Virus record (IMG/VR): IMGVR_UViG_3300035701_000011
Location: 33,146 to 97,145 of that record
Direction: 5' to 3' (one strand)
Origin: a virus
DNA: 64,000 nucleotides
Part shown: positions 4,790-57,903 of the stretch, piece by piece
Position numbering within the stretch: the first letter of the stretch is position 1
How the letters are laid out: every line of letters starts with the position of its first letter
The notes under the pieces: generated by a model
The model's input: only the letters and a program-made list of their open reading frames with translations
Databases searched by the model: none
Told to the model about the DNA's origin: nothing
Made by a program: the position numbers and the translations under genes

Positions 4790-5792
4790 AGGTGCAAAAG
4801 GTAAAAAGAATAAAGCAGAAATTGCATTAGAAATTGTTAGAAAACAAGAATGTTCACCAGTAAATGAACATTCACAAATAGTGAACAATCCTTTAATAGA
4901 AAAAAATAATATACAAATCTCTCAAGAAAGAAAAGATAAATTAAATCAAACTCTGAGGGAGATTAATAAAATTATTCCTGATTCTGTTAAGTATGCTAAA
5001 GATATTGAAGTTAAGGAGAGGCAATCCTTTGGTTATAAATGTCTTGATAAATTAACAGGCGGTGGCATAATTAGAGGTAATTTTACGACTATTTGGGGGT
5101 CAAAAGCATGTGGAAAAAGTACAATTGCTTATAAAATGATTGCAACAGCCCAAAAAGAAGGTAAAATAGCAACTTATTTGGATATTGAGAGGTCTTACGA
5201 CCCCCTATGGGCTGCAAAATTTGAAGTAAATGTAAACGATTTAGTTATTGTGAATATAGAAACAGCAGAACAAGCATTAGATACAATTATAAAATTATGC
5301 CGAGAGGATGTTATTGATTTGATTGTTTTGGATAGTATTCAAGGTCTTACACCGAAACAAGAAAATTATGCTGGTAAAGGAGAAAAAGAAAGGTCTGTGG
5401 AAGACGATAGTATGGCATTACTTGCCCGTAAACTTTCACAATTTTTTAGAATGGCTGCTGCTCCAGTTTCTAAGGCTAAATGTGCAATATTATTGATTGG
5501 GCAAGCACGAATGGATTTATCATCATTTATTAAGTTAGAAACCTTATCAGGAGGTCATGCTTTGTTACACAATAGTCGTTTAATTTTAAGATGTAGAAGA
5601 GGACAGGGTGCAGATGCTCCCACAGAAAAAAAAGAAACAGGAAAAATAACAGAAAAAGGTAAACCAGAAATGAAATCTGTACCAATAGGATTTGATTGTG
5701 TTATTCATGTAAATAAATCACAGATACAAGGATGTACAGAAGGTGATGAAATACACGTACCCTTCTATTATAAGGATGGAATAAAAGAATGA
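4776..5792 (+). CDS. RecA/UvsX-like recombinase
   Basis: Strand-exchange ATPase of 338 residues. A lysine-rich N-terminal 75 residues precede the RecA core: Walker A GSKACGKST near residue 107, a Glu-containing YLDIERS strand, and Walker B LIVLDSI near residue 182; loop L2-like segments and IGQARM follow. ATG 4776 follows GAGG. It probably forms filaments on single-stranded DNA for repair, recombination-dependent replication and perhaps genome end processing, working with the SSB and SbcCD-like proteins downstream. Confidence 0.85.
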   Translation: MGRTKGAKGKKNKAEIALEIVRKQECSPVNEHSQIVNNPLIEKNNIQISQERKDKLNQTLREINKIIPDSVKYAKDIEVKERQSFGYKCLDKLTGGGIIRGNFTTIWGSKACGKSTIAYKMIATAQKEGKIATYLDIERSYDPLWAAKFEVNVNDLVIVNIETAEQALDTIIKLCREDVIDLIVLDSIQGLTPKQENYAGKGEKERSVEDDSMALLARKLSQFFRMAAAPVSKAKCAILLIGQARMDLSSFIKLETLSGGHALLHNSRLILRCRRGQGADAPTEKKETGKITEKGKPEMKSVPIGFDCVIHVNKSQIQGCTEGDEIHVPFYYKDGIKE

Positions 5793-8625: not shown

Positions 8626-8822
8626 TAACTAATAAAAATTTAACTAAACAAGAAAAAAGAATATTAATTCATTTGACAAATGCTTGGAATGAATTTATTA
8701 AATTAGATACTCAACACCCTGATGAATTAAGAGATTTTGCAGATGGATTGCATAAATGTCAATATTTAATTGGTATGAGAATAGCAAGAAGAATAGAACC
8801 AAAAATATTTCCCATAAAATGA
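8622..8822 (+). CDS. Hypothetical protein before terminase
   Basis: Sixty-six residues; the ending HKCQYLIGMRIARRIEPKIFP resembles a short conserved phage family of unknown function. Its stop overlaps the terminase start (AAATGA), so translation of the terminase is probably coupled to it. Confidence 0.5.
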   Translation: MITNKNLTKQEKRILIHLTNAWNEFIKLDTQHPDELRDFADGLHKCQYLIGMRIARRIEPKIFPIK

Positions 8823-10435
8823 TAGCCAAAATTAAAGAAAACGATTTAAAAGCATTTCAGGTCTTATCTCATCCGATAAGTGCGTCTCAAATTCTTTTCC
8901 ATGATTTTGATTCATTAGGAACGTGGGATAAAGAAAAATTTGGACATATTCGTGTTTATCAGTATCCTATGATGTCATTTGATAGTTTATTTTTATATGA
9001 TAAGAAATTATCTAAAGAAAAGAATTGGGAAATTAAAAATAATTTAGCTGAAAATTATAATCTTGGGGGGAGACTTACTGGAAAATCAGCAATTTCTATT
9101 CTTATAGATTCTATAGTTGGCACTTTTAATAAAGTTTATACTTGGACTGTAATTAGTTCCTATGATAAGTTACATCTACAAGAAATCTTTGAAAAAATGA
9201 TTAATTGTTTTGAAAATCATAAAATAATGAGAATTTTAAATGTACATCCGTTAAGAAGTCCTACTTTTAAATTAAATTTTGCAAACGGATGTTTATTAGA
9301 AAGTGTAAATATGAATATTGCCAGCAAAAATCCAGGTGGTCAATTCTTTGGTAAACATTTTGGAAGACACTATATGGAAGAATCTTCGTATTTAACTAAA
9401 GAAGTTTCTGGAAAAATGCTTATGGCACAATCAGAACAAGGTTGTATAAATCGTTTTTCTGGTATGACTACATTTACAAAAACATCTCCAGTAGGCGAAA
9501 TATTTTTTGATTTAAAAAACAAAAAAAAGATTATTAATCTTCCTTCCTATATTAATCCTACTTGGAATGATAAAAAAGAAGCAGATGCTATAAAAGAATT
9601 TGGTGGTAAGGATTCTCCTGGTTATCAAGTACAGATTGATGGTAAGGTTATTGAAGGTGCCGAAAGTGTTTTTGATATTCAAAGAATTAGGCAAACTTAT
9701 TTAGTAGATAAAAAAGGCAATCCTATTTCTATTAAAGCATTTGAAGTAAATAAAGATAGTTTTTTTAGATATAAAGAAATTGTTATTGTTGAGAAACCTG
9801 TTAATGCTGAATTTTTAGGAATCTATGCAGACATTGGCGAGGGTGGGGCAGCATCTGAATATATTATTATTTCAAAAACAAATCAAATTTATAGATATAT
9901 ATATCGTATCACTACATTTCAATTATCACCCGAAGAAGAAAAAGAATTTCTCGGATATTTAATTAGTCTTTTACTACCTAATATTATAGGGTTGGATAAT
10001 ACTTCTGGAGTAGGCAAGGCATTGATAAGTGCATTAAGAAAAGATTATCCTGATAATGTTATTCCCGTTTCGTTTAATGAAAACATTCAAATTGGATTAG
10101 CCAGAGATAAAGATGGAAAATTTATTACAGATAAATCAGGGCAGATTGTATATGAAGAAGCCAATATGGTAGATTGGAGTATGCAGAGATTAAAAGATAT
10201 TTTCTATAGTAAAAAAATACAGATGTTGGAAGATATAAAATTCGATACAGAAATTAATAATGTTATTGTTGGAAGAACAAAACAAGGTAAGGTCATGTAT
10301 GGTTATAAAGTGGCTAACCATTTATTTCAAGCCTTTCAAGTATTTGCAATTTGTGATTGGTTAAAAGAGGGTTTACCTAATTTAAAACCCATTAAAAAAC
10401 GTCGCCCTGGGTTTGGGAGTTTCGGAAATGCATAA
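8819..10435 (+). CDS. terL: Terminase large subunit
   Basis: DNA-packaging motor of 538 residues. ATPase domain: Walker A-like GGRLTGKSA near residue 82, and the Walker B/catalytic pair in HYMEESS near residue 183. Nuclease domain: GIYADIGEGG near residue 335 and GLDNTSGVG near 391 supply acidic metal ligands in a RNase H-like fold. ATG 8819 is preferred to the TTG at 8756, which lies inside the previous gene. Unusually, it is in the rightward replication unit, about 50 kb from the portal and on the opposite strand. An HNH gene follows directly, starting inside its last codons. Confidence 0.88.
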   Translation: MIAKIKENDLKAFQVLSHPISASQILFHDFDSLGTWDKEKFGHIRVYQYPMMSFDSLFLYDKKLSKEKNWEIKNNLAENYNLGGRLTGKSAISILIDSIVGTFNKVYTWTVISSYDKLHLQEIFEKMINCFENHKIMRILNVHPLRSPTFKLNFANGCLLESVNMNIASKNPGGQFFGKHFGRHYMEESSYLTKEVSGKMLMAQSEQGCINRFSGMTTFTKTSPVGEIFFDLKNKKKIINLPSYINPTWNDKKEADAIKEFGGKDSPGYQVQIDGKVIEGAESVFDIQRIRQTYLVDKKGNPISIKAFEVNKDSFFRYKEIVIVEKPVNAEFLGIYADIGEGGAASEYIIISKTNQIYRYIYRITTFQLSPEEEKEFLGYLISLLLPNIIGLDNTSGVGKALISALRKDYPDNVIPVSFNENIQIGLARDKDGKFITDKSGQIVYEEANMVDWSMQRLKDIFYSKKIQMLEDIKFDTEINNVIVGRTKQGKVMYGYKVANHLFQAFQVFAICDWLKEGLPNLKPIKKRRPGFGSFGNA

Positions 10436-11075
10436 ATTAAAAGTATGTTCAAAATGTAAAAAAGAATTGAATATTAATAATTTTACAATAGATAATAGAG
10501 CTAAAGATAAATTATTAGGTTATTGTAAACAATGTGTTAAAGATTATCAAATTTTACATAAAAAAGAAAGAAAGATATATTTGGAAAATAATAAACAAAA
10601 ATTTATTTGTTACAGGAAAAAATATTATCAAATAAATAAAGAAAAAGCAAAACAATATTATCAGGAACATAAAATAGAAGTTATTCAAAAACATAAAAAT
10701 TATTATGAAAAAAACAAAGAAAAAATTTTATATCGTATTAAAATTTATCAAAATAAAAAAATAAAAATAGATATTAATTTCCGATTAGCTGCTTATCTAA
10801 GAACAAGAATTTGGCATGCTCTTAAAGGCAATCCTAAATTATCTACAACTATGAAATTGGTAGGATGTAATATTAAACAATTAAAACATCATCTTGAAAA
10901 ACAATTTATTAAAGGAATGACGTGGAAAAATTATGGTAAGTGGGAAATAGACCACATAAGACCTTGTGCTTCTTTTGACCTTAGCAAACCAAGTGAACAG
11001 AAGAAATGTTTTTATTATAAGAATCTTCAGCCTTTATGGAAAGAAATAAATAGACGTAAACAAGGAAAAATATAA
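10428..11075 (+). CDS. HNH homing-type endonuclease (family A, copy 1)
   Basis: 215 residues. An N-terminal zinc finger (CSKCKKELN...CKQC) is followed by Lys-rich tandem units of YYxxHKxxx type, then the shared C-terminal nuclease block: GMTWKNYGKWEIDHIRPC, SFDLSKPSEQKKC and YKNLQPLW. The DH pair and downstream N are the HNH catalytic core. It starts within the terminase stop region and ends in TAATG overlapping the DNA polymerase start, so it is a free-standing mobile gene slotted neatly between two core genes. Confidence 0.8.
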   Translation: MHKLKVCSKCKKELNINNFTIDNRAKDKLLGYCKQCVKDYQILHKKERKIYLENNKQKFICYRKKYYQINKEKAKQYYQEHKIEVIQKHKNYYEKNKEKILYRIKIYQNKKIKIDINFRLAAYLRTRIWHALKGNPKLSTTMKLVGCNIKQLKHHLEKQFIKGMTWKNYGKWEIDHIRPCASFDLSKPSEQKKCFYYKNLQPLWKEINRRKQGKI

Positions 11076-13144: not shown

Positions 13145-13679
13145 AGAAGATTGGAAACAATACGCAAAAGAATATTATCAATTATATAAGAAAAAAATTC
13201 TTTTAATTCGAAAAATTTATAATAAAATTCATAAAAAAGAAATTGCTTTATATAAAAAAGAGTATGACCAACTAAATAAAGAAAAAATAAGTTTACAAAG
13301 AAAAAAGTATTATCAAGACCATAAAAAAGAAACCATCGAACAAGATAATGTTTACAAATATAATAGGTACCATAGAGATATTAATTTTAGAATACGAATT
13401 TGTCTTAGACAAAGATTGCGAAAAGTATTAAAAAAAATTCATAAATCTACTTCCATATTGAAATTAATTGGTTGTTCTTTAAAAGAATTAAAACAACATT
13501 TAGAATCACAGTTTTTAAAAAATATGTCGTGGTCTAACTATGGATTGTGGCACATAGACCATATTAAACCTTGTGCTTCATTTGATTTGCGAAAAAAGTC
13601 AGAACAACGCAAATGTTTCCATTATACTAACTTACAACCTCTGTGGGCAGTTGATAATTTAAAAAAAGGAGCAAAATAA
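13134..13679 (+). CDS. HNH homing-type endonuclease (family A, copy 2)
   Basis: 181 residues starting MWTKEDWKQYAKEYYQ. Four or so YYQxHKKEx-type units precede the shared core: NYGLWHIDHIKPC, SFDLRKKSEQRKC and YTNLQPLW. No N-terminal zinc finger, unlike copy 1. ATG 13134 lies inside the polymerase 3' end; the longer in-frame TTG start lies deep in the polymerase and is rejected. Confidence 0.78.
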   Translation: MWTKEDWKQYAKEYYQLYKKKILLIRKIYNKIHKKEIALYKKEYDQLNKEKISLQRKKYYQDHKKETIEQDNVYKYNRYHRDINFRIRICLRQRLRKVLKKIHKSTSILKLIGCSLKELKQHLESQFLKNMSWSNYGLWHIDHIKPCASFDLRKKSEQRKCFHYTNLQPLWAVDNLKKGAK

Positions 13680-16146: not shown

Positions 16147-16503
16147 ATGACAGATTTAAATAAGATTTTGGTTACAGGAATTTTGGTTCAGGATGTAGAA
16201 CTTCGATTTACACCAACTGGAACGAAGACTGCTAACTTGCGAATTGCTATTCATAGGAGATATAAAAATAAAACTCAAGAAATCAAAGAAGAGACTGAAT
16301 TTATTACTGTGGTAGTATGGCAGATTTTAGCAGAAAATTGTGCCAATTATTTAAAGAAAGGTAGTAGAATTTTTGTTGAAGGAAGATTACAGACTAGAGA
16401 ATTTATTGACAAATACCAACAGAAAAGAACAGTAACAGAAATTGTAGCAGAAGATGTAGAATTTTTAGACAGACCTGAAAAGAAAGAAATTAAGGAAGAA
16501 TAA
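16147..16503 (+). CDS. ssb: Single-stranded DNA-binding protein
   Basis: 118 residues, OB-fold of bacterial SSB type: NKILVTGILVQDVELRFTP, ANLRIAI, FITVVVWQ, NYLKKGSRIFVEGRL. The usual acidic C-terminal tip is replaced by RPEKKEIKEE, so the partner-binding tail is degenerate. AAAGGAGG precedes the start. It would coat single strands for the polymerase and recombinase. Confidence 0.88.
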   Translation: MTDLNKILVTGILVQDVELRFTPTGTKTANLRIAIHRRYKNKTQEIKEETEFITVVVWQILAENCANYLKKGSRIFVEGRLQTREFIDKYQQKRTVTEIVAEDVEFLDRPEKKEIKEE

Positions 16504-16889
16504 TGGATTGGAAAGACGAATTAATAAAAAAAGAAAAAGAACTTAATCTACCAAAAGGAGGAGAAGATGGACAGATTATTTCATCTAGTAGTATTAGTAA
16601 TAGGAATAATACTAGGAGCAACAGCGATGTACATAGGGTATCCGTACATAAAGAAATAAATAATATTAAAAAAGGAGGTAATGTAATGATTACAAAAGAA
16701 GCAGCAGTTAGTGATTTAGAAAAAATTGATGTTAATGGTCCAGTAGGTAAAGTTATTGTTGAAGTAGGTAAAGTTATTATTAAAGTTTTAGCAACTATTA
16801 GGTCTAATCAACTTTTGACTGATGAAGAAAAAGTTAAAATTCGTGAAGCAAGAAAATTAAGAGACAGCAGAAAAGAACCACAGAAATAA
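16503..16889 (+). CDS. Open frame containing nested genes; hypothetical protein
   Basis: A 128-residue frame starts in the SSB stop (TAATG). Its middle (about residues 24-56) is Ser/Asn-rich and coincides with a membrane-peptide gene in another frame, so this middle may be an accidental reading. A strong internal start at 16686 could supply the C-terminal half alone. Which starts are used cannot be decided from sequence. Confidence 0.4.
   Translation: MDWKDELIKKEKELNLPKGGEDGQIISSSSISNRNNTRSNSDVHRVSVHKEINNIKKGGNVMITKEAAVSDLEKIDVNGPVGKVIVEVGKVIIKVLATIRSNQLLTDEEKVKIREARKLRDSRKEPQK
16567..16659 (+). CDS. 30-residue single-span membrane protein, overlapping frame
   Basis: AAAAGGAGGAGAAG precedes ATG 16567. 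The peptide begins MDRLFHLVVLVIGIILG, a clean membrane helix with a basic C-terminus (YIKK). It lies wholly inside the longer frame 16503-16889. The strong ribosome site and hydrophobic pattern suggest this is the real reading here. Confidence 0.5.
   Translation: MDRLFHLVVLVIGIILGATAMYIGYPYIKK
16686..16889 (+). CDS. Hypothetical protein from strong internal start
   Basis: AAAAAAGGAGG at 16670-16680 lies 5 bases before ATG 16686 (and overlaps a preceding ATGTAA). The 67-residue product has a valine-rich centre (GKVIVEVGKVIIKVLATI) and a charged helical end. It shares frame and stop with 16503-16889. I consider it the more likely product of this region. Confidence 0.5.
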   Translation: MITKEAAVSDLEKIDVNGPVGKVIVEVGKVIIKVLATIRSNQLLTDEEKVKIREARKLRDSRKEPQK

Positions 16890-16897
16890 TTCAAGAT

Positions 16898-16924
16898 GGA
16901 AGGGTTGATAATAATCACCCTTCC
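16898..16924 (+). terminator. Hairpin, possible weak terminator
   Basis: GGAAGGG pairs with CCCTTCC, extended by TGAT/ATCA after one bulged base, loop AATA. No T-run follows on the + strand (CCAAGAC), so it may be a processing or attenuation hairpin rather than a full terminator. It closes the SSB gene block. Confidence 0.4.
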
Positions 16925-16937
16925 CCAAGACAAAATG

Positions 16938-20184: not shown

Positions 20185-20852
20185 ACAAATGTATAATTTG
20201 TAAAGAAAAATTTCAACCAAATAGTAATAATCAAAAATGTTGTTCAATTGACTGTTATAAAATTCATAAGAACAACTATCAAATAATTTATCGCAGTAAC
20301 AGGAACCAAGAAAAGAAAATGATTTGTTTGATTTGTAAAAATGAATTTATTAAGATTGGTAATCAAATATGTTGCAGTAAAAAATGTTCTACTATTAATA
20401 AAAAAGAGAAACATATAATTTATCGATTAAATCATAAAAAAGTAAAAGAAATTTATGATAATAATTATCGGCAAATTCATAGAATAGCAATAAATGAATC
20501 ACATAAAAAACGTTTTGAATCTGATATTAATTTTAGAATAATGTGTAATTTAAGAAGTAGATTACTTTCAGCAATTAGGGGTAATCCAAAATTAGAAACT
20601 ACTACAAAATTAGTTGGATGTAGTATAGATAAATTTAAGAAACATCTTGAAAAACAGTTCAAAATAGGGATGAATTGGAATAATTGGGGTAGGGGTTGGA
20701 GTGGAATGGGCATGAAAGAATGGCATATAGACCATATTATTCCTTGTTGTCAATTTGATTTAACGAAAAAATTGGAACAAAAGAAGTGTTTTCATTATAC
20801 TAATCTTCAACCTCTGTGGGCAATAGAAAACATGCAAAAAAGGAAAAAATAA
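20181..20852 (+). CDS. HNH homing-type endonuclease (family A, copy 3) splitting SbcC
   Basis: 223 residues from ATG 20181 (an ATG at 20166 is an alternative). Two zinc fingers at the N-terminus (CIICKEKF...CCSIDC; CLICKNEF...CCSKKC), a basic middle, then the shared core: EWHIDHIIPCC, QFDLTKKLEQKKC, YTNLQPLW. A glycine/tryptophan insertion (NNWGRGWSGMGM) precedes the core, unique among the copies. It overlaps both SbcC halves (ATGA and TAATG), leaving no room for a self-splicing intron. Confidence 0.8.
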   Translation: MNKCIICKEKFQPNSNNQKCCSIDCYKIHKNNYQIIYRSNRNQEKKMICLICKNEFIKIGNQICCSKKCSTINKKEKHIIYRLNHKKVKEIYDNNYRQIHRIAINESHKKRFESDINFRIMCNLRSRLLSAIRGNPKLETTTKLVGCSIDKFKKHLEKQFKIGMNWNNWGRGWSGMGMKEWHIDHIIPCCQFDLTKKLEQKKCFHYTNLQPLWAIENMQKRKK

Positions 20853-23514: not shown

Positions 23515-24102
23515 ATGCCATATAAAAATAAAAAAGTTAGAACTAAATACCATAAAATATATTATTCGAAGCATAAAGATAAAATTTTAAGAATTGCAAA
23601 AAAATACATAAAATTACATAAAATAAAAGTTTCTATTTATCAAAAAAATTATCGCAAGAAGCATAAAGAAAAAATTAAACAATATAATGAACAACATAAG
23701 AAAAAAATTAATTTACAGATGAGAAAATGGAGAAAAGAAAATAGAAAAAAGATAACTCATTATATCAGGCAACGTAGAAATAATAATTTAGATATTAAAT
23801 TAAAAGATTATTTAAGAAATAGATTATATCAAACTTTAAAAGGACTTTATAAATCTAAATCAATTTTAAAATTACTCGGTTGCTCTATTAATTTTTTAAA
23901 AAATCATTTAGAAAAATTATTTGCTAAAGGTATGAATTGGCAAAACTATGGTAAGTGGCATATAGACCACATCAAGCCTTGTGCTTCATTTGACTTGAGC
24001 AAACCCGAAGAGCAACGTAAGTGCTTTCATTATAAAAATCTTCAGCCCTTATGGGCGAAAGAAAATTATATTAAACACGATAACATTATAAAAGAGGAAT
24101 AG
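23515..24102 (+). CDS. HNH homing-type endonuclease (family A, copy 4)
   Basis: 195 residues: a very Lys-rich array of YxxxHKxKI units, then NYGKWHIDHIKPC, SFDLSKPEEQRKC and YKNLQPLW. No zinc finger at the N-terminus. It separates the M16/membrane genes from the deformylase gene, whose ATG follows its stop directly. Confidence 0.78.
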   Translation: MPYKNKKVRTKYHKIYYSKHKDKILRIAKKYIKLHKIKVSIYQKNYRKKHKEKIKQYNEQHKKKINLQMRKWRKENRKKITHYIRQRRNNNLDIKLKDYLRNRLYQTLKGLYKSKSILKLLGCSINFLKNHLEKLFAKGMNWQNYGKWHIDHIKPCASFDLSKPEEQRKCFHYKNLQPLWAKENYIKHDNIIKEE

Positions 24103-43569: not shown

Positions 43570-44145
43570 TTATTCTCCTAAAATCTTGTCGTTCTTACTT
43601 AAGTTATCAAACGCCCATAAAGGTTGAAGATTAGTATAGTGAAAACATTTACGTTGCTCTTTAACTTTACTTAAATCAAACGAAACACATGGTCTAATAT
43701 GGTCAATATGCCAAAGACCATAATTATTCCAGGTCATACCTAATTGAAACTTAGATTGTAAATGATTCTTTAATTGTTCTACATTGCACCCTAATAATCT
43801 CATGGTAGATTCTGATTTGGAGATTCCTTTTAATACTTTATAAATTCTAATTCTTAAATTAACAATAATTTTATTTTTTATTTTTCTATAGTATTTTAGA
43901 TTATAAGAAATTCTTTTTTCTCGATTATTATAATAATTTTTTTTAGCCCATTCTCTTGCTTTTTCATAATTATCATAATAATACTTCAAACTATAATCAT
44001 TTACTTCTTTTTTATGAGATTCTCTATATTTTTTCTTATATTGTTTAATTTCTTCAGCATGTTCTTTTCTGTATTCAGAATTTCTTTTATTTAATTCATC
44101 TTTATGTTTTTGATAATATATTTTTCTATATTCTTTTATATCCAT
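43570..44145 (-). CDS. HNH homing-type endonuclease (family A, copy 5)
   Basis: 191 residues. MDIKEYRKIYYQKHKDELNK begins an array of YxxxHKxE units, then NYGLWHIDHIRPC, SFDLSKVKEQRKC and YTNLQPLW. ATG 44145 gives a 1-base gap to the upstream gene. It is on the leftward strand inside the tail cluster, so family A has spread to both transcription units. Confidence 0.78.
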   Translation of the reverse strand: MDIKEYRKIYYQKHKDELNKRNSEYRKEHAEEIKQYKKKYRESHKKEVNDYSLKYYYDNYEKAREWAKKNYYNNREKRISYNLKYYRKIKNKIIVNLRIRIYKVLKGISKSESTMRLLGCNVEQLKNHLQSKFQLGMTWNNYGLWHIDHIRPCVSFDLSKVKEQRKCFHYTNLQPLWAFDNLSKNDKILGE

Positions 44146-44146
44146 T

Positions 44147-44602
44147 TTAATCACCGATAATCCAATTACCTTGTTCATCTATGATAAGTATTATTTTCTG
44201 ATTTTTTCCATCTTTAAGCCATTGTAAACCCAAATGATATTCTATTGTATGAGATTTTTCTTTTAAATCTTGGGTTCCTATTTCTACTTTATGCCTACGG
44301 AAGAATACTAATCTACAATTTTCTTTTTTTTGTTCTGTTTCTATATAAGGAAATTCTAATCTATTATAACCAATAAGTCCGTTTGTTAAGTTTACACTAA
44401 ACATCTTACCATTGTTATTTGTTAAATTAAAATAAACTAAATCATTAAATTTTTCTTGTACTTCTCTGAATTGATGCTCTATACCGTTTTTGTCAAATTG
44501 AAAAATATGAGTACCATCTTTGAAAATTGCGTTCCAATAAAAAGATAGCGAATTCATTGAATTGTTTCCGCCATTAATATTTATGTCCATTGTATTGTCC
44601 AT
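44147..44602 (-). CDS. Hypothetical phage protein
   Basis: 151 residues: SLSFYWNAIFKDGTHIFQFD, EHQFREVQEKFNDLVYF, then beta strands. The type is common among tail-region hypotheticals and is distantly like the gene at 45255. Contains no metal or catalytic motif. Function unknown. Confidence 0.5.
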   Translation of the reverse strand: MDNTMDININGGNNSMNSLSFYWNAIFKDGTHIFQFDKNGIEHQFREVQEKFNDLVYFNLTNNNGKMFSVNLTNGLIGYNRLEFPYIETEQKKENCRLVFFRRHKVEIGTQDLKEKSHTIEYHLGLQWLKDGKNQKIILIIDEQGNWIIGD

Positions 44603-46710: not shown

Positions 46711-49242
46711 TTAAATTTTAGGACTTATTCTTTTTGCAAAAATATTAATAAAAGTTTCATCTGTCATTAATTTTTCCTCTAACATTTTACTCATTAATTT
46801 TATAACTTCTTCTGCTGTTGCCATACCACCAGCATCTACATTAACATTAACATTTTGAGCACCGTAATTAGTAATATTTGCTGTTGGTGCAATCGTTCCA
46901 CCCCCAATTATCGTTGTAGGAGTTACTGTAGGAATTTTTATTTCTGGTAATCTTATAGACAATTCTTTAAATAAATTAGTAGTTTTTGCTATTGCTAATT
47001 GAGCTTCTTCAGAAAAAGAAGTCCAATATTCTTGAATTATTTTTCTATCAAACATAGAACCAGTATATTTAGTACTGATTTCTTCTGGTTTCATTTGTTG
47101 TAATTCTGCTAATCGACGAATTCTAGATTTTTCAAACATATCTGCTTGTTCATATTTCATCGATAAATCAGTTAATGTATTTATTTCTTTTTGTCTTTTT
47201 TGTAATTTAACATCTATTAATTTATTACCTAATTCTTCTAATTTTAGATTTTTTGTATGACTATCATATAAAGTTTTTGATTGTCTAACTAATTCAATTT
47301 CTTTTTTTACCTGTACTTCTACTGCATCAACACCATTATAGCGAATTTTAATTAATTCTTTTTCGATATTTAGTCTTTCTTTTTCTGATTCTGTTAATTC
47401 TGTAGATAAAGATTCTTCTTCATCAAATCCTTCTATTAATGCTTGTTTGGCAGCATCCTGACCTTTTTGAATTTTATATTGTTCATCAATAGATTTTGTT
47501 TGGTCTTCATATAATTTGTTAATTTCTTTTTGTTTTTCTGCTAATTGTATTTTCACTTTTATTGCTTCGGTTCCACCCGTAAATTTTAATTGATTTTGTA
47601 ACTCTTGAAGTTCTTTTTCAGCTGATGCGATTTTTGGTTCAAATTCTAGACTAACATTTAGTCTAATTTTTGTCATTTCTAATTCTTTTGATATATCTTC
47701 TATAGATTTCTTTAATTCTTCTGGTTTGCCTGTTTCTAAAGCTACTTTAATTCTTAATTCTTTTGTTGATATTGCAGTTATTGCATCTTGAACCTTTTTT
47801 AATCTTTCAACATTTTCGACTGTCTGAGGAGCTTTTGCTAATTTATTTCTAACATTTAATAATTCTTCTAATGATTTTACTTCGTTTAATCTTGTTTCAT
47901 TTGCTAATTGTACTTTATTAATTTCTCTAGTATAAAGTGCTCCGTAGGCTTTTTCATAATTAATAAGAGCAGCAAAATTAATTATCATTTTATCAAACAA
48001 AGATAAACTTGCTTTAAATCCTGAAGTATCCCCTATAGCAGTAGTTAATACATTCCATGCAGCACTAACTCGTTGTATTTTAATTGCTGTTGTATCTTGA
48101 ATTAATGCAAATGCTTTTTCTGCTGCACCAGCAGATGTTAAAGCTGCAATTCTAGCATCGAGTGAAGCAGTATAATTCTGCATTAACGCATATAAACCAA
48201 CCATCTGTCGTTTACTACCTAACGATGTTGCTATCTGTAATTTTTCTTGAACAGTTAAGGTTTCCCATTTACCAGCTAAATCTTCTATAATACTAGAAAC
48301 ACTACGCATTTGTGTTCCAATTACATTCGTAGCTTTTCCTGTAGAATCTAAATAAAATGGTACTTTAGCTATTTGTTCAATAGTTTTTTTACCAGAAGTT
48401 AATAATCTAGCATAAACAAATGATAATGCTCTTGCTGCTTCAGAACCACTTTTTCTAGTAACTTCAACTATAGCAGTTACGTCTCCCAAAAATTCAGACA
48501 TAGTAATTCCTAACTGATTGGCTGAAGCACCAGCCACTTTAGTTGCATCTGCTAAATCTTTAGAAGTTACAGCAAATTGTCTTTCAACATTAATCCATTT
48601 ATCTACAATTGAAGTTGCATCTCCTATACCTAATTTAAATCCCTCAATTGCAGCAGTCATGTCATTAACTGCTGTTTTTATATCGGTACCTAAAATTTTT
48701 GAGGCTAACATAGCTGCTCTTGTTAATTCTATAGTTTCTTTAACCGTTCTACCTTGTTGTGCAAAAATTAATGCTGCATCAGCAGCTTCTGAACCAGTTG
48801 TTCCATAAGCATAAGCCAAACCAACAAGGACATTTTGTAAATTTTTATACTCATCTGAAGTACCTTTACCAACTATTTTTATTCTAGTCATTGCTGTTTC
48901 TAAATCTATTAAAAATTTTATTTGAGCTTGTATAGTATTAGTAACTGCCATTATAGCACCACGTAAAATCATCCATACAGGAGCAACAATTAAAGCCCTT
49001 CTCATAGCTAATCCAAATTGTTCCATCATTGGAGTGGCTTTTTGAGTAGTATCTTTAACTTTAGTAAATGTTTCTTCTATTTGTTTACCTGTTGCTAATC
49101 CTTCTTTATCAAACATTGTCGTGATTTTTGTTTTAGATAAATTTTGAGCAGCTTTCTGGGTTTCTTGTAAACCAGCAACTACTTTTTCTTTACCCTCTAG
49201 GGCAAGCCGAATTTTTGCAAGGAAGTCTCCACCTTGTGCCAT
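46711..49242 (-). CDS. Tape measure protein
   Basis: 843 residues. N-terminal helices, then a TP901-type minor-tail core (VGLAYAYGTTGSEAADAAL; NQLGITMSEFLGDVTAIVEV) with a hydrophobic segment (MRRALIVAPVWMILRGAIMAV), and a long coiled coil. It sets tail length; by the usual 0.15 nm per residue the tail would be about 125 nm. Downstream of the assembly-chaperone candidates as in most siphoviruses. Confidence 0.85.
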   Translation of the reverse strand: MAQGGDFLAKIRLALEGKEKVVAGLQETQKAAQNLSKTKITTMFDKEGLATGKQIEETFTKVKDTTQKATPMMEQFGLAMRRALIVAPVWMILRGAIMAVTNTIQAQIKFLIDLETAMTRIKIVGKGTSDEYKNLQNVLVGLAYAYGTTGSEAADAALIFAQQGRTVKETIELTRAAMLASKILGTDIKTAVNDMTAAIEGFKLGIGDATSIVDKWINVERQFAVTSKDLADATKVAGASANQLGITMSEFLGDVTAIVEVTRKSGSEAARALSFVYARLLTSGKKTIEQIAKVPFYLDSTGKATNVIGTQMRSVSSIIEDLAGKWETLTVQEKLQIATSLGSKRQMVGLYALMQNYTASLDARIAALTSAGAAEKAFALIQDTTAIKIQRVSAAWNVLTTAIGDTSGFKASLSLFDKMIINFAALINYEKAYGALYTREINKVQLANETRLNEVKSLEELLNVRNKLAKAPQTVENVERLKKVQDAITAISTKELRIKVALETGKPEELKKSIEDISKELEMTKIRLNVSLEFEPKIASAEKELQELQNQLKFTGGTEAIKVKIQLAEKQKEINKLYEDQTKSIDEQYKIQKGQDAAKQALIEGFDEEESLSTELTESEKERLNIEKELIKIRYNGVDAVEVQVKKEIELVRQSKTLYDSHTKNLKLEELGNKLIDVKLQKRQKEINTLTDLSMKYEQADMFEKSRIRRLAELQQMKPEEISTKYTGSMFDRKIIQEYWTSFSEEAQLAIAKTTNLFKELSIRLPEIKIPTVTPTTIIGGGTIAPTANITNYGAQNVNVNVDAGGMATAEEVIKLMSKMLEEKLMTDETFINIFAKRISPKI

Positions 49243-51060: not shown

Positions 51061-51285
51061 TTAAATATCTAATTTATCGGCTGATAAATATTCTTTATCT
51101 ATTCTGTGTTCCCATTCTATATCATAATTACAATCTGTTAAATAATAACGAGCTAATGTACCTAATTTATCATAACGGATTATTAAGACTTTATTTTTAC
51201 TATTAACAAATCCAGCATAATCATAATTGGGGTCTGAAGTAGTATCTAAATTCATAAAAGCAAAACTCATAAAAAATAATTCCAT
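51061..51285 (-). CDS. Hypothetical protein after RNA hairpin
   Basis: 74 residues from ATG 51285, preceded by AGGAGAATAATTAAT. Sequence MELFFMSFAFMNLDTTSDPN and VNSKNKVLIIRYDKLG; no known domain. A longer in-frame reading from 51405 crosses the hairpin at 51306-51350 and is rejected. Confidence 0.45.
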   Translation of the reverse strand: MELFFMSFAFMNLDTTSDPNYDYAGFVNSKNKVLIIRYDKLGTLARYYLTDCNYDIEWEHRIDKEYLSADKLDI

Positions 51286-51305
51286 ATTAATTATTCTCCT
51301 AAAGC

Positions 51306-51350
51306 AAAAAGGGATAAACCCTTCTTCATATACGGTGAAAGGCTTATCCC
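51306..51350 (-). terminator. Intrinsic terminator downstream of tRNA
   Basis: On the minus strand GGGATAA (51344-51350) pairs with TTATCCC (51311-51317), with inner TTCA/TGAA pairing, followed by five U (51306-51310). It is 45 bases after the tRNA and 20 bases before the next gene's ATG region, so it could end the tRNA transcript or act as an attenuator for the gene below. Confidence 0.55.
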
Positions 51351-51395
51351 CTGCGTGTTTACTTATTTTATGCCTTACCGTACATATTACAATTT

Positions 51396-51470
51396 TGGAG
51401 CCCAAAGAGTGATTCGAACACTCCTCTGAAGTTTACAAAACTACTGCTCTTCCTACTGAGCTATTCGGGC
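51396..51470 (-). tRNA. tRNA-Thr (UGU anticodon)
   Basis: Reads from 51470 to 51396. Acceptor 7 bp GCCCGAA with UUUGGGC (one G-U), D-stem GCUC/GAGC, anticodon loop UUUGUAA giving anticodon UGU, T-stem GAGUG/CACUC with loop UUCGAAU, and an encoded 3' CCA. One U-U mismatch lies in the anticodon stem (positions 28-42). Reads the ACA/ACG codons frequent in this AT-rich genome. It is embedded between the tube gene and the downstream small genes rather than in a tRNA cluster. Confidence 0.9.
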
Positions 51471-51473
51471 TGG

Positions 51474-51507
51474 TAGGAGGCTCAGATTATATCCTGAGAC
51501 CTCCTAT
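51474..51507 (-). other. RNA hairpin between tube gene and tRNA
   Basis: TAGGAGG pairs with CCTCCTA, extended by CTCAG/CTGAG with one bulge, loop of eight bases. No U-run follows on the minus strand. It lies 10 bases after the tube gene stop and 4 bases before the tRNA, so a processing site or mRNA 3' stabiliser is more likely than a terminator. Confidence 0.5.
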
Positions 51508-51516
51508 TTTATTCAA

Positions 51517-52722
51517 TTATGCAAAAACTAATTCAGTTACGTCATCACTTATTTTTAAATTGTCTGATTCTAAATTACAGGTGCGAGCTTGATAAGCCTC
51601 AACATCCTGAGTTGTTCCAATGGTTGTAGGTGATAATCCTGTTATTAAATAACCTATTTTAATATCTCCTGTATGAGCTTTATTACCATAAATTAATATT
51701 TGCATTTGAATATTTTCAGCAAAATCTCTAGGATTAATATAAGGATAAGTAGTATCACTTGCCAAAATATCTTCAAGTGCAAAATCTTCAGCAAATCTAT
51801 TTAATGCTACTGTAACTGTTTTATTATTGACACCACGTTGCACAACTTCACTATTACCAATTTCTTTATAATCTGCTCTATCAAATGCGACATCAATACC
51901 AACCGATTGTAAACGATAGATTCTTGTACCAGTACTACCTACTTTTAATCTAATTTCACAATATTCGGCTAATAATAAATCAGAATCAGGTTCATTATCT
52001 GTCCATAAAGTAGTATATGCAGAAGCAGATTCATAATAAACTTTTATTATGTCTCCATTTACTCCACCAGTAACTGTTACTGTTGCTGGGGCAGCAAATG
52101 TATAATCAGTAGTTTCTACTAATTCTGTTACAACACCACTACGAACTCTCAAAACTCTAAGAATATAATCTCCAGAAGCATATTCTACAGGAACTGGGTC
52201 TAATACTATAACTGTAGATGCTCCTGCTGCTGTTGCTTTTTGAAAAGCAAGATATTTTCCATCTAACATTTTATAATCTTCACCAATGAGGTCAAAACTT
52301 CTTTCTATTGTTGCATCTGGGTCGCCAATATTAATAGAAAATCCATTAACTCTTAATCCAGGGAACCAAATAGTTCCTCTAAATGTAGCGTTGTCATCTG
52401 TTAAAAATGCAGCAATATCCATCTGTGTTTCAACTAAATCGTCTAAATCTATAGAATTATCTAAACCTCCCGAAGCAGGAGTTTCTTTGTTAGCTAAACA
52501 ATACCAAAAATCCATTGAACCATATTCAAACTGAGTTGCAGAATACGCAAATGAAGGGGTCGACTTTTTAAATCCTAACCTACCTACACGACCTATCTCA
52601 TACTTTTTTTCTCTATTAAGCGTTAAATCACCCGATAAATTCTGCAACCTATCAATCTGTTCGGGGTCTCGGTCATTGTTCCAGGGAAAAGCCCTGGGTT
52701 TACACATTTTCGCATGAAGCAT
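51517..52722 (-). CDS. Major tail tube protein
   Basis: 401 residues, beta-rich. KCKP-like start MLHAKMCKPRAFPWNND, then strands typical of tube/virion proteins, an Ig-like-looking insertion (YTFAAPATVTVTGGVNGDI) and a C-terminal IGYLITGLSPTTIG. Long for a tube protein; the insertion explains this. AAAGGAGG precedes ATG. Its position upstream of the chaperones and tape measure and downstream of connectors supports the tube call. Confidence 0.6.
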   Translation of the reverse strand: MLHAKMCKPRAFPWNNDRDPEQIDRLQNLSGDLTLNREKKYEIGRVGRLGFKKSTPSFAYSATQFEYGSMDFWYCLANKETPASGGLDNSIDLDDLVETQMDIAAFLTDDNATFRGTIWFPGLRVNGFSINIGDPDATIERSFDLIGEDYKMLDGKYLAFQKATAAGASTVIVLDPVPVEYASGDYILRVLRVRSGVVTELVETTDYTFAAPATVTVTGGVNGDIIKVYYESASAYTTLWTDNEPDSDLLLAEYCEIRLKVGSTGTRIYRLQSVGIDVAFDRADYKEIGNSEVVQRGVNNKTVTVALNRFAEDFALEDILASDTTYPYINPRDFAENIQMQILIYGNKAHTGDIKIGYLITGLSPTTIGTTQDVEAYQARTCNLESDNLKISDDVTELVFA

Positions 52723-52822: not shown

Positions 52823-53374
52823 TTACTTTATCTTTTGTTTAGGTTTGCTTAAATTATCTTTTGCCCATAAGGGTTGAAGATTTGTATAACGGAAACATTT
52901 CTTCTGTTCACTTGGTTTACTAAGGTCAAAAGAAGCACAGGGTTTTATATGGTCTACATGCCATTTACCATAATTAGACCAAGTCATACCAGATTGAAAC
53001 TTAGATTGTAAATATTCTTTTAATCGTTCCACAGAACAACCGACTAATTTCATAGTAGTAGATGATTTGGGATTATTTTTTAATACCAAATATAATCTAG
53101 TTCTTAAATTGCATAAAATTTTAAAATTTATATTTGTAGACCTTTTAATTCTATAATATTTAGTTATTTTATTAAGTATAGATTTTTTATTTTTTAGATA
53201 GTATTTTTTCTTTTTAGCCAAAATTTGTTCTCTGTGAGTTTCATAATATTTTTTATCAACTTTAACACATTTTACTTTATTTATTTTTACATATTCTTTT
53301 CTTTGCAACAAAAGTTTAATTCTATTTTTTAAATAATAAGCCTTCTGATATTCTTGTTTATTAAATTTTTTCAT
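52823..53374 (-). CDS. HNH homing-type endonuclease (family A, copy 6)
   Basis: 183 residues: Lys-rich YYxxxKxxI array, then GMTWSNYGKWHVDHIKPC, SFDLSKPSEQKKC and YTNLQPLW. Located between the holin-like membrane gene and the tube gene. Its core is nearly identical in wording to copy 1. Confidence 0.78.
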   Translation of the reverse strand: MKKFNKQEYQKAYYLKNRIKLLLQRKEYVKINKVKCVKVDKKYYETHREQILAKKKKYYLKNKKSILNKITKYYRIKRSTNINFKILCNLRTRLYLVLKNNPKSSTTMKLVGCSVERLKEYLQSKFQSGMTWSNYGKWHVDHIKPCASFDLSKPSEQKKCFRYTNLQPLWAKDNLSKPKQKIK

Positions 53375-56863: not shown

Positions 56864-56902
56864 CCCCTCAACCTTTCTATTTTAGTGATATAATCTTTTT
56901 GG

Positions 56903-56930
56903 GAAGGGGAAAATTTTATTCTTCCCCTTC
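56903..56930 (-). terminator. Hairpin after capsid gene
   Basis: GAAGGGGAA and TTCCCCTTC form a 9-bp stem with a 10-base loop, 20 bases after the capsid gene stop. On the minus strand no U-run follows, so it may protect or attenuate the capsid message rather than fully terminate. Confidence 0.5.
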
Positions 56931-56949
56931 ATTTATATTAAACTAAATA

Positions 56950-57903
56950 TTATACACCTAACAAAATATCATCACTCCAACAAACAGCACGATAATTTGT
57001 TAATACCTGTATAATACTTTCATATCCGAATATACCATAACCCAATGTATTAAAACCAGCACCTGTAATATTAATGGGTGTAGGTGTTCTTGCAACGTCA
57101 ATTAAACGAACAGCACCTTCCGCAGCACCACTAAGTTGAGCAATTTCACCATTAAATTTTCTACGTAAGAAGGAAATAGGTCTACCAACAGCTAAATTAG
57201 AATTACGACCAACTAAAATTGCTGTTCCAGCAGCTATAACAGGATGTGTCGTACCAGCTAAACCAGAATCTCCAAGAACTTTTACTATTTTAACAATACC
57301 TAAATTTGTAATTTCTTCTTTAATCGACATCTTATAATTGAAATTATCAACGTTGTCTTTATCATATTTTTCGATAGTATCCATAACATCAGAAGCTACC
57401 AATAAAACGTAATCTGTCGCATAGTTAGAAATTTTTTGTTTCATCTTTATAATAGTATCAAGTATATCATCACCTGTAGTTGCTCCAGTAACTTCCTGAG
57501 AAGGTACTGCGATTATTAAAGCAAGAATTCTGCGAATTTCTTCACAATCCATAGCACGAATAATACCATCTTTCTTCGCAGCTAAAGCTGACTGGTCTTT
57601 AGAATTTAAAATCTCATCAATTAACACTACTTCTAACTTAGACTGCAATCCAACAAAGGTAAGAGGAAGTGCTGTCTGATTAGTTAAAACATGATATACT
57701 AAAGAACCATTCGCATCAGCAGCATAAATATTATCAACTTCTCTTTCATATGCACCACCAACTCTAAAATATTCAACTGTCTCGCCAGCTTCAGATTCTT
57801 TATAATTAACAATATCTGCTAACTCTACTGCACATTTTTGATTAGGGTCTATCGGTTCACTTATTAACTGATAGGCTCTCTCAATTACATCTTTTCTTTC
57901 CAT
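56950..57903 (-). CDS. Major capsid protein, HK97-type
   Basis: 317 residues. VIERAYQLISEPIDPNQ at the N-arm, then beta-rich A/P-domain-like segments (GRNSNLAVGRPISFLRRKF; GTAILVGRNS) and a C-terminal EGAVRLIDVARTPTP strand. Directly follows the protease/scaffold gene, as expected. CAAAGGAGAAATAA precedes ATG. The length is close to HK97-fold capsids of mid-size siphoviruses; identification rests on position and composition. Confidence 0.75.
   Translation of the reverse strand: MERKDVIERAYQLISEPIDPNQKCAVELADIVNYKESEAGETVEYFRVGGAYEREVDNIYAADANGSLVYHVLTNQTALPLTFVGLQSKLEVVLIDEILNSKDQSALAAKKDGIIRAMDCEEIRRILALIIAVPSQEVTGATTGDDILDTIIKMKQKISNYATDYVLLVASDVMDTIEKYDKDNVDNFNYKMSIKEEITNLGIVKIVKVLGDSGLAGTTHPVIAAGTAILVGRNSNLAVGRPISFLRRKFNGEIAQLSGAAEGAVRLIDVARTPTPINITGAGFNTLGYGIFGYESIIQVLTNYRAVCWSDDILLGV

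Follow-up and report, generated by a model that had tools for sequence, protein, structure and literature searches.

A phage tRNA-Thr(UGU) gene, probably inserted behind a recurrent hairpin-CCA element at the end of a tail-tube gene

A tRNA-Thr(UGU) gene stands behind the tail-tube gene of an uncultivated phage, whose IMG/VR virus record comprises 97,145 bases. We analysed a stretch of 64,000 nucleotides of this record (its bases 33146-97145; G+C 27%), hereafter the window, and conclude that the tRNA gene is genuine and was probably inserted whole, G1 through CCA, behind a pre-existing hairpin-CCA at the end of the tail-tube gene. The sequences compared show the tRNA itself, a hairpin spread more widely than the tRNA, clean CCA-CCA junctions, patchy presence of the tRNA and HNH genes at the same spot. 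The tRNA gene itself is ordinary; the interest lies in the role of the hairpin-CCA element as a site of insertion. The features of the locus are as follows.

46711-49242, minus strand: tape-measure protein gene, downstream of the tube gene
51061-51285, minus strand: 74-aa gene (open reading frame) of unknown function, behind hairpin 2
51306-51351, minus strand: hairpin 2 with U-run (-21.5 kcal/mol, UUUUU), putative terminator or attenuator ahead of the next genes
51373-51383, minus strand: motif GTACGGTAAGG, partly complementary to the hairpin 2 loop (duplex p 0.002, loop shuffles)
51396-51470, minus strand: tRNA-Thr(UGU) with encoded CCA and one U28-U42 mismatch (ARAGORN, Rfam RF00005, cloverleaf)
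51471-51473, minus strand: CCA directly 3' of the hairpin 1 stem
51474-51506, minus strand: hairpin 1, a copy of the recurrent element, with a 12-bp stem (-18.9 kcal/mol), a purine-rich 5'-arm base and no U-run
51517-52722, minus strand: predicted tail-tube (major tail) protein gene, 401 aa (AlphaFold2 and Foldseek against PDB; tape-measure gene downstream)

The tRNA gene and its setting

ARAGORN found one tRNA in the window, a tRNA-Thr with anticodon TGT at 51396-51470(-), which was also the sole gathering-level Rfam match there (RF00005, 60.1 bits, E 1.7e-10). A first-pass annotation had described a single tRNA-Thr(UGU) with an encoded CCA and one U-U mismatch in its anticodon stem, and this description was borne out on each point: no second tRNA was found by Rfam in the whole 97,145-base record, the CCA is encoded, and 20 of the 21 cloverleaf pairs are standard, U28-U42 in the anticodon stem being the exception. 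The low covariance score feared from this mismatch did not materialise, the cut-off being 29 bits.

As had been proposed, the gene lies between the tube gene and a small gene, here the open frames 51517-52722(-) and 51061-51285(-). The label of the former was supported by modelling. The AlphaFold2 model of the 401-aa protein (mean pLDDT 71.7) matched, by Foldseek against PDB, the P74-26 tail tube (E 4.6e-4) and the SH-Ab15497 major tail protein (E 9.0e-4), and more weakly the T5/DT57C tail proteins; together with the tape-measure gene downstream, this supports the prediction of a siphophage tail tube. Neither Pfam nor PHROGs named the protein, and searches of a phage collection and of bacterial genomes gave no relative. 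A pattern based on the tRNA matched six unrelated bacteria and was uninformative on the host. The 74-aa gene 51061-51285(-) had no match in PHROGs, nor a relative in any of nine further loci used for comparison, and the 158-aa late gene, used as a query, gave no match. Elsewhere in the window, the 559-aa gene 8756-10435 looks by eye like a terminase large subunit; its homologue in the related locus L006 (3101-5833) is split by about 1.1 kb.

The tRNA would most likely be excised from a transcript of the structural genes, since it lies on the same strand as the tube gene, with 46 nt from the tube stop codon to G1, and has a good cloverleaf and a terminator-like hairpin behind it. A 240-nt stretch at the locus folds at -71.3 kcal/mol (z -4.69), better than any of 200 dinucleotide-preserving shuffles.

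Empty and filled sites and the origin of the tRNA

Relatives of the tube protein were gathered from IMG/VR and one locus was kept per distinct relative, giving 20 tube loci including the window (L002 was left out, its tube region repeating that of L001). ARAGORN detected a tRNA behind the tube gene in two of them, the window and L006, the one further carrier found. Whole-record searches of 19 tube-bearing records, by which the presence of a tRNA was judged for L014, L017, L029 and L030, gave tRNAs in three: those of the window, L006 and L048. For L077 and L078 the scan covered the loci only. L051 and L052, records from a pattern search and outside the count of 19, had no tRNA. In G017, the record of L048 and a distant relative, ten tRNA matches form an array at 4859-5610, away from the tube locus.

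In the tube-protein tree a clade of 12 loci including the window (support 100/99) is split from the eight others. The window pairs with the tRNA-less L001 (100/100) and L006 with the tRNA-less L003 (84/78), so the two carriers are not sisters. The tree is compatible with entry of the tRNA as well as with its loss in most lineages.

Related phages thus carry the site both with and without the tRNA, and comparing the two states defines the junctions. In the tRNA-less L029 the stem is followed by CCAAAATTGTAATAAATGTAAGGTAAGG. In the window the stem-CCA is followed by the tRNA, whose own CCA precedes AAATTGTAATATGTACGGTAAGG, and the empty-site sequence CCAAAATTGTAATA of L029 is preserved across the 3' junction. 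When the 75-nt tRNA was removed in silico, the window aligned without gap at the junction, as did L006. The tRNA therefore occupies the site as one piece, G1 through CCA, with a CCA on either side, and appears by this alignment as a clean insertion right behind the CCA of hairpin 1.

The L006 locus runs in the order tube gene, hairpin, HNH gene, second hairpin, tRNA and U-run hairpin, so that its HNH gene adjoins hairpin and tRNA. In the window no such gene adjoins the tRNA; the closest (52823-53374) is found across the tube gene. The last 20 nt of the L006 HNH gene, TTTTGCATAATTGAATAAAA, are identical to the end of the window tube gene; a pattern built on TTTTGCATAATTGAATAAAA retrieved no further IMG/VR contig. 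The 77-aa gene behind is 81% identical between the window and L006 over 70 residues (75% at full length), above the 67-69% of the tube proteins. These observations fit a transfer between L006 and a phage resembling that of the window, with hairpin, tRNA and 77-aa gene moving as one stretch; its direction and mechanism we infer.

In three of the 12 clade loci (L006, L039 and L041) the CCA of the tube hairpin is followed, at a distance of 5-7 nt, by the start of an HNH or endonuclease-VII-like gene. An endonuclease gene in L041 (5210-6210) stands between two hairpin-CCA copies behind the tube gene, an arrangement as if the hairpin had been duplicated upon insertion of that gene. The window itself holds six related endonuclease-VII/HNH-like genes, five of them 40-54% identical to the copy at 52823-53374:

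10569-11060, 13158-13670, 20259-20849 and 23548-24093, plus strand: endonuclease-VII/HNH-like genes, by similarity to the copy at 52823-53374
43594-44148 and 52823-53374, minus strand: endonuclease-VII/HNH-like genes, the latter being the reference for comparison

A single origin of the two tRNAs was weighed against their separate gain. Aligned to each other, the window and L006 tRNAs are identical in only 58 of 78 columns, which makes a second gain at the same hairpin-CCA spot possible, perhaps one kept for decoding of Thr(ACA) codons in late genes. Codon usage is in line with such a demand: Thr codons reach 6.9% on the late strand against 4.9% on the other, and ACA makes up 45.6% of Thr codons against 36.6% (Fisher p 0.004). 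However, the idea of a codon demand, for which the first-pass annotation had put forward counts of ACA codons in virion versus host genes, found little support. In the 18 tRNA-less loci the tube genes resemble those of the two carriers in Thr density, and their ACA shares (0.11-0.62) span the carriers' 0.51 and 0.53; the enrichment is therefore no argument for selection. The same isotype, the same junction and the 20-nt identity just upstream point instead to a shared origin, and we regard two gains as doubtful.

The mismatch in the window tRNA could mark a decaying gene. The L006 tRNA also carries one mismatch, at a different pair, and together with the patchy presence of the tRNA on the tube tree this would suit a decayed passenger, unexpressed or uncharged, at a locus that matters for its hairpins only. 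Such decay is unlikely, and somewhat more so than two gains, given the good Rfam scores of both tRNAs (62.3 bits for that of L006) and the intact CCA, anticodon loop and T-loop. Moreover, the bases G1-C72, C2-G71, G35 and U36, the identity set for Thr, can all be read in the sequence.

The hairpins directly frame the tRNA in both carriers, as would be expected if the three had evolved as one module in which the hairpins release or protect the tRNA, but this is very improbable, as 17 of the 18 tRNA-less loci keep a strong hairpin behind the tube gene and nine tRNA-less clade loci keep both hairpins.

We thus favour insertion of the tRNA as a unit behind a hairpin already in place. Every step of processing, termination and mobility in the following scheme is one that we infer. 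The tRNA would be mobile cargo spread by recombination between phages, HNH nucleases probably helping. Tube gene and tRNA would be co-transcribed, and an RNase P cut at 51471/51470 would free the tRNA at G1, after which the tube mRNA would end in hairpin 1. Where the tRNA is absent, the message would presumably come to end in this hairpin by another route. Hairpin 2 would limit transcription into the next genes whether the tRNA is present or not.

The hairpin-CCA element and the downstream hairpin

The first-pass annotation had noted an upstream stem without U-run, and hairpin 1 answers to this description: CCA follows the stem in place of the U-run of an intrinsic terminator. A hairpin of -10 kcal/mol or better was found within 80 nt of the tube stop codon in 19 of the 20 loci (mean -19.9), L027 being the only one to miss this value in the automatic pass. 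Among control gene ends, of which these loci offer 183 and 120 were sampled, 17.5% reached it; their mean was -7.5 kcal/mol. With the hairpin in 19 of 20 tube loci and the tRNA in two, the hairpins would be the older of the two, and the earlier idea that both are tied to the tRNA was not supported.

Across 14 hairpin copies the stem pairs vary on both sides yet stay paired. CCA directly follows the stem in all 12 loci of the window clade and in none of the eight others (for L004 the program extended the stem beyond the CCA and the shorter stem was used). The window copy, with 7+5 bp and CCA, recalls a tRNA minihelix; a strict reading of this kind was rejected because stem length ranges from 8 to 17 bp among the 14 copies.

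Hairpin 1 is one copy of a recurrent element, with a consensus of roughly AUAAAA-GARGG...CCYUC-CCA-AAA, of which the window holds two more:

56903-56930, minus strand: second copy, part of a stretch at 56895-56936, with CCA at 56900-56902 and then an A-run, behind the 317-aa late gene 56950-57903(-)
16898-16924, plus strand: third, looser copy, with CCA at 16925-16927, after the 128-aa gene 16503-16889(+)

The hairpin-CCA was present behind the homologue of the 317-aa gene in five of the six relatives whose gene end was read; in the sixth, L017, the hairpin lacks the CCA. At this second site, too, an HNH gene begins 3 nt (L014) or 25 nt (L005) after the hairpin-CCA. The 317-aa gene 56950-57903(-) is a capsid candidate by position only; its AlphaFold2 model was too poor to use (mean pLDDT 40.3) and profile searches gave no useful match. 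The 128-aa gene 16503-16889(+) and a 129-aa gene of G008 (L090, near 12803, minus strand) have similar N-termini and a hairpin-CCA behind both. G008 carries at least seven copies, and the element also stands behind genes in the G001 stretch.

The CCA was invariant in all 20 element copies aligned with MAFFT, an alignment in which the 5' arms are out of register. Scans for the element covered 371 kb in four records (that of the window, G001, G004 and G008). A tolerant hairpin-CCA scan gave 20 matches against 2.3 in block shuffles. Taken alone it is weak evidence, because CCT is as frequent as CCA after hairpins (17 in 7,222 triplets and 20 in 8,668, respectively) and some matches look unrelated to the element. 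A strict pattern gave 13 matches against 0.95 in shuffles. It misses two copies in the window, the one at 16898 and the tube copy with the tRNA behind it. All 13 matches fall in the 13.3% of the sequence that lies outside open frames of at least 60 aa; the pattern had been shaped in part on six of them, and the remaining seven are likewise intergenic.

A accounts for 69% of the six bases ahead of the stem and for 35% of intergenic DNA. The opposite strand therefore reads as a stem followed by a U-rich stretch, and use of the element as an antisense terminator is possible. More tentatively, and with the odds in our view against it, the hairpin-CCA would be an undescribed phage RNA 3'-end signal as well as a docking site for tRNA and HNH genes. 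Transcripts may then be ended or trimmed at the stem with its invariant CCA and A-run, without a U-run. The element may be placed behind chosen genes, the mRNA end resembling a tRNA acceptor end, and at the docking site the tRNA may join CCA to CCA.

Downstream of the tRNA, hairpin 2 has a stable stem (-21.5 kcal/mol) and ends in UUUUU, in agreement with the terminator that had been proposed there; a mechanical terminator scan, which takes loops of 3-8 only, did not list it. A U-run hairpin ahead of the next gene was found in 11 of the 12 window-clade loci, L041 lacking it. A weak resemblance of hairpin 2 to Rfam Spy392987 (25.7 bits, cut-off 47) was taken as chance.

Upstream of hairpin 2 lies a GTAxGGTAxGG motif to which its loop is complementary. 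The duplex energy was better than in loop shuffles at p < 0.05 in six of 11 loci (window, L003, L005, L006, L014 and L039) and not in L001, L004, L007, L029 and L030; the combined p of 1e-6 assumes independence of the 11 loci, which are related. Hairpin 2 and the motif may thus form an attenuator or a pseudoknot. A role of GTAxGGTAxGG as a general late promoter was rejected, as the whole record of the window has a single exact site (GTANGGTANGG, at 51373-51383). Open frames lie between the two hairpins in some relatives, as judged by eye. A leader peptide was discarded for the window, where no start codon there has a fitting ribosome-binding site.

Known systems and significance

With its cloverleaf and encoded CCA the gene resembles ordinary phage tRNA genes, and the tRNA-Thr genes of many phages match it weakly. 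It differs from them as a single gene in a structural operon, abutting a hairpin. The T7 terminator that stands after gene 10 is likewise a hairpin behind the gene of an abundant virion protein. In contrast to it, hairpin 1 has no sense U-run and carries the invariant CCA and an A-run instead.

T4 SegB is described as a nuclease encoded beside tRNA genes, in a stretch that moves between related phages (PMC2988022, PMC6409571). L006 is similar, with an HNH gene adjoining hairpin and tRNA. SegB is, however, a GIY-YIG enzyme in a tRNA cluster, whereas the nuclease gene here is of the HNH type and the tRNA a single one in a structural operon. The window, unlike the T4 case, has no nuclease gene adjoining its tRNA, and homing here is putative, judged from the genes alone.

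Homing nuclease genes beside essential phage genes have been reported for ICP1 and others (PMC10448857). The likeness lies in HNH genes near virion genes at exchange boundaries, and the difference in the entry point, here a conserved hairpin-CCA element which also takes a tRNA. A literature search over titles and abstract beginnings returned no description of a comparable element. That a homing endonuclease encoded nearby can move phage tRNA genes is already known from T4 SegB; new are the empty, tRNA-filled and HNH-filled states of one site, together with the recurrent element.

Taken together, these results indicate that a phage tRNA gene can enter an operon of virion genes with little disturbance, the slot being between a hairpin that would end the message and a terminator-like hairpin that would guard the next gene. 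As related phages carry the site in three states, the movement of phage tRNA genes can be asked about at base resolution. As a candidate RNA 3'-end signal, the hairpin-CCA belongs to a group of phages with a tube protein unmatched in the phage collection searched.
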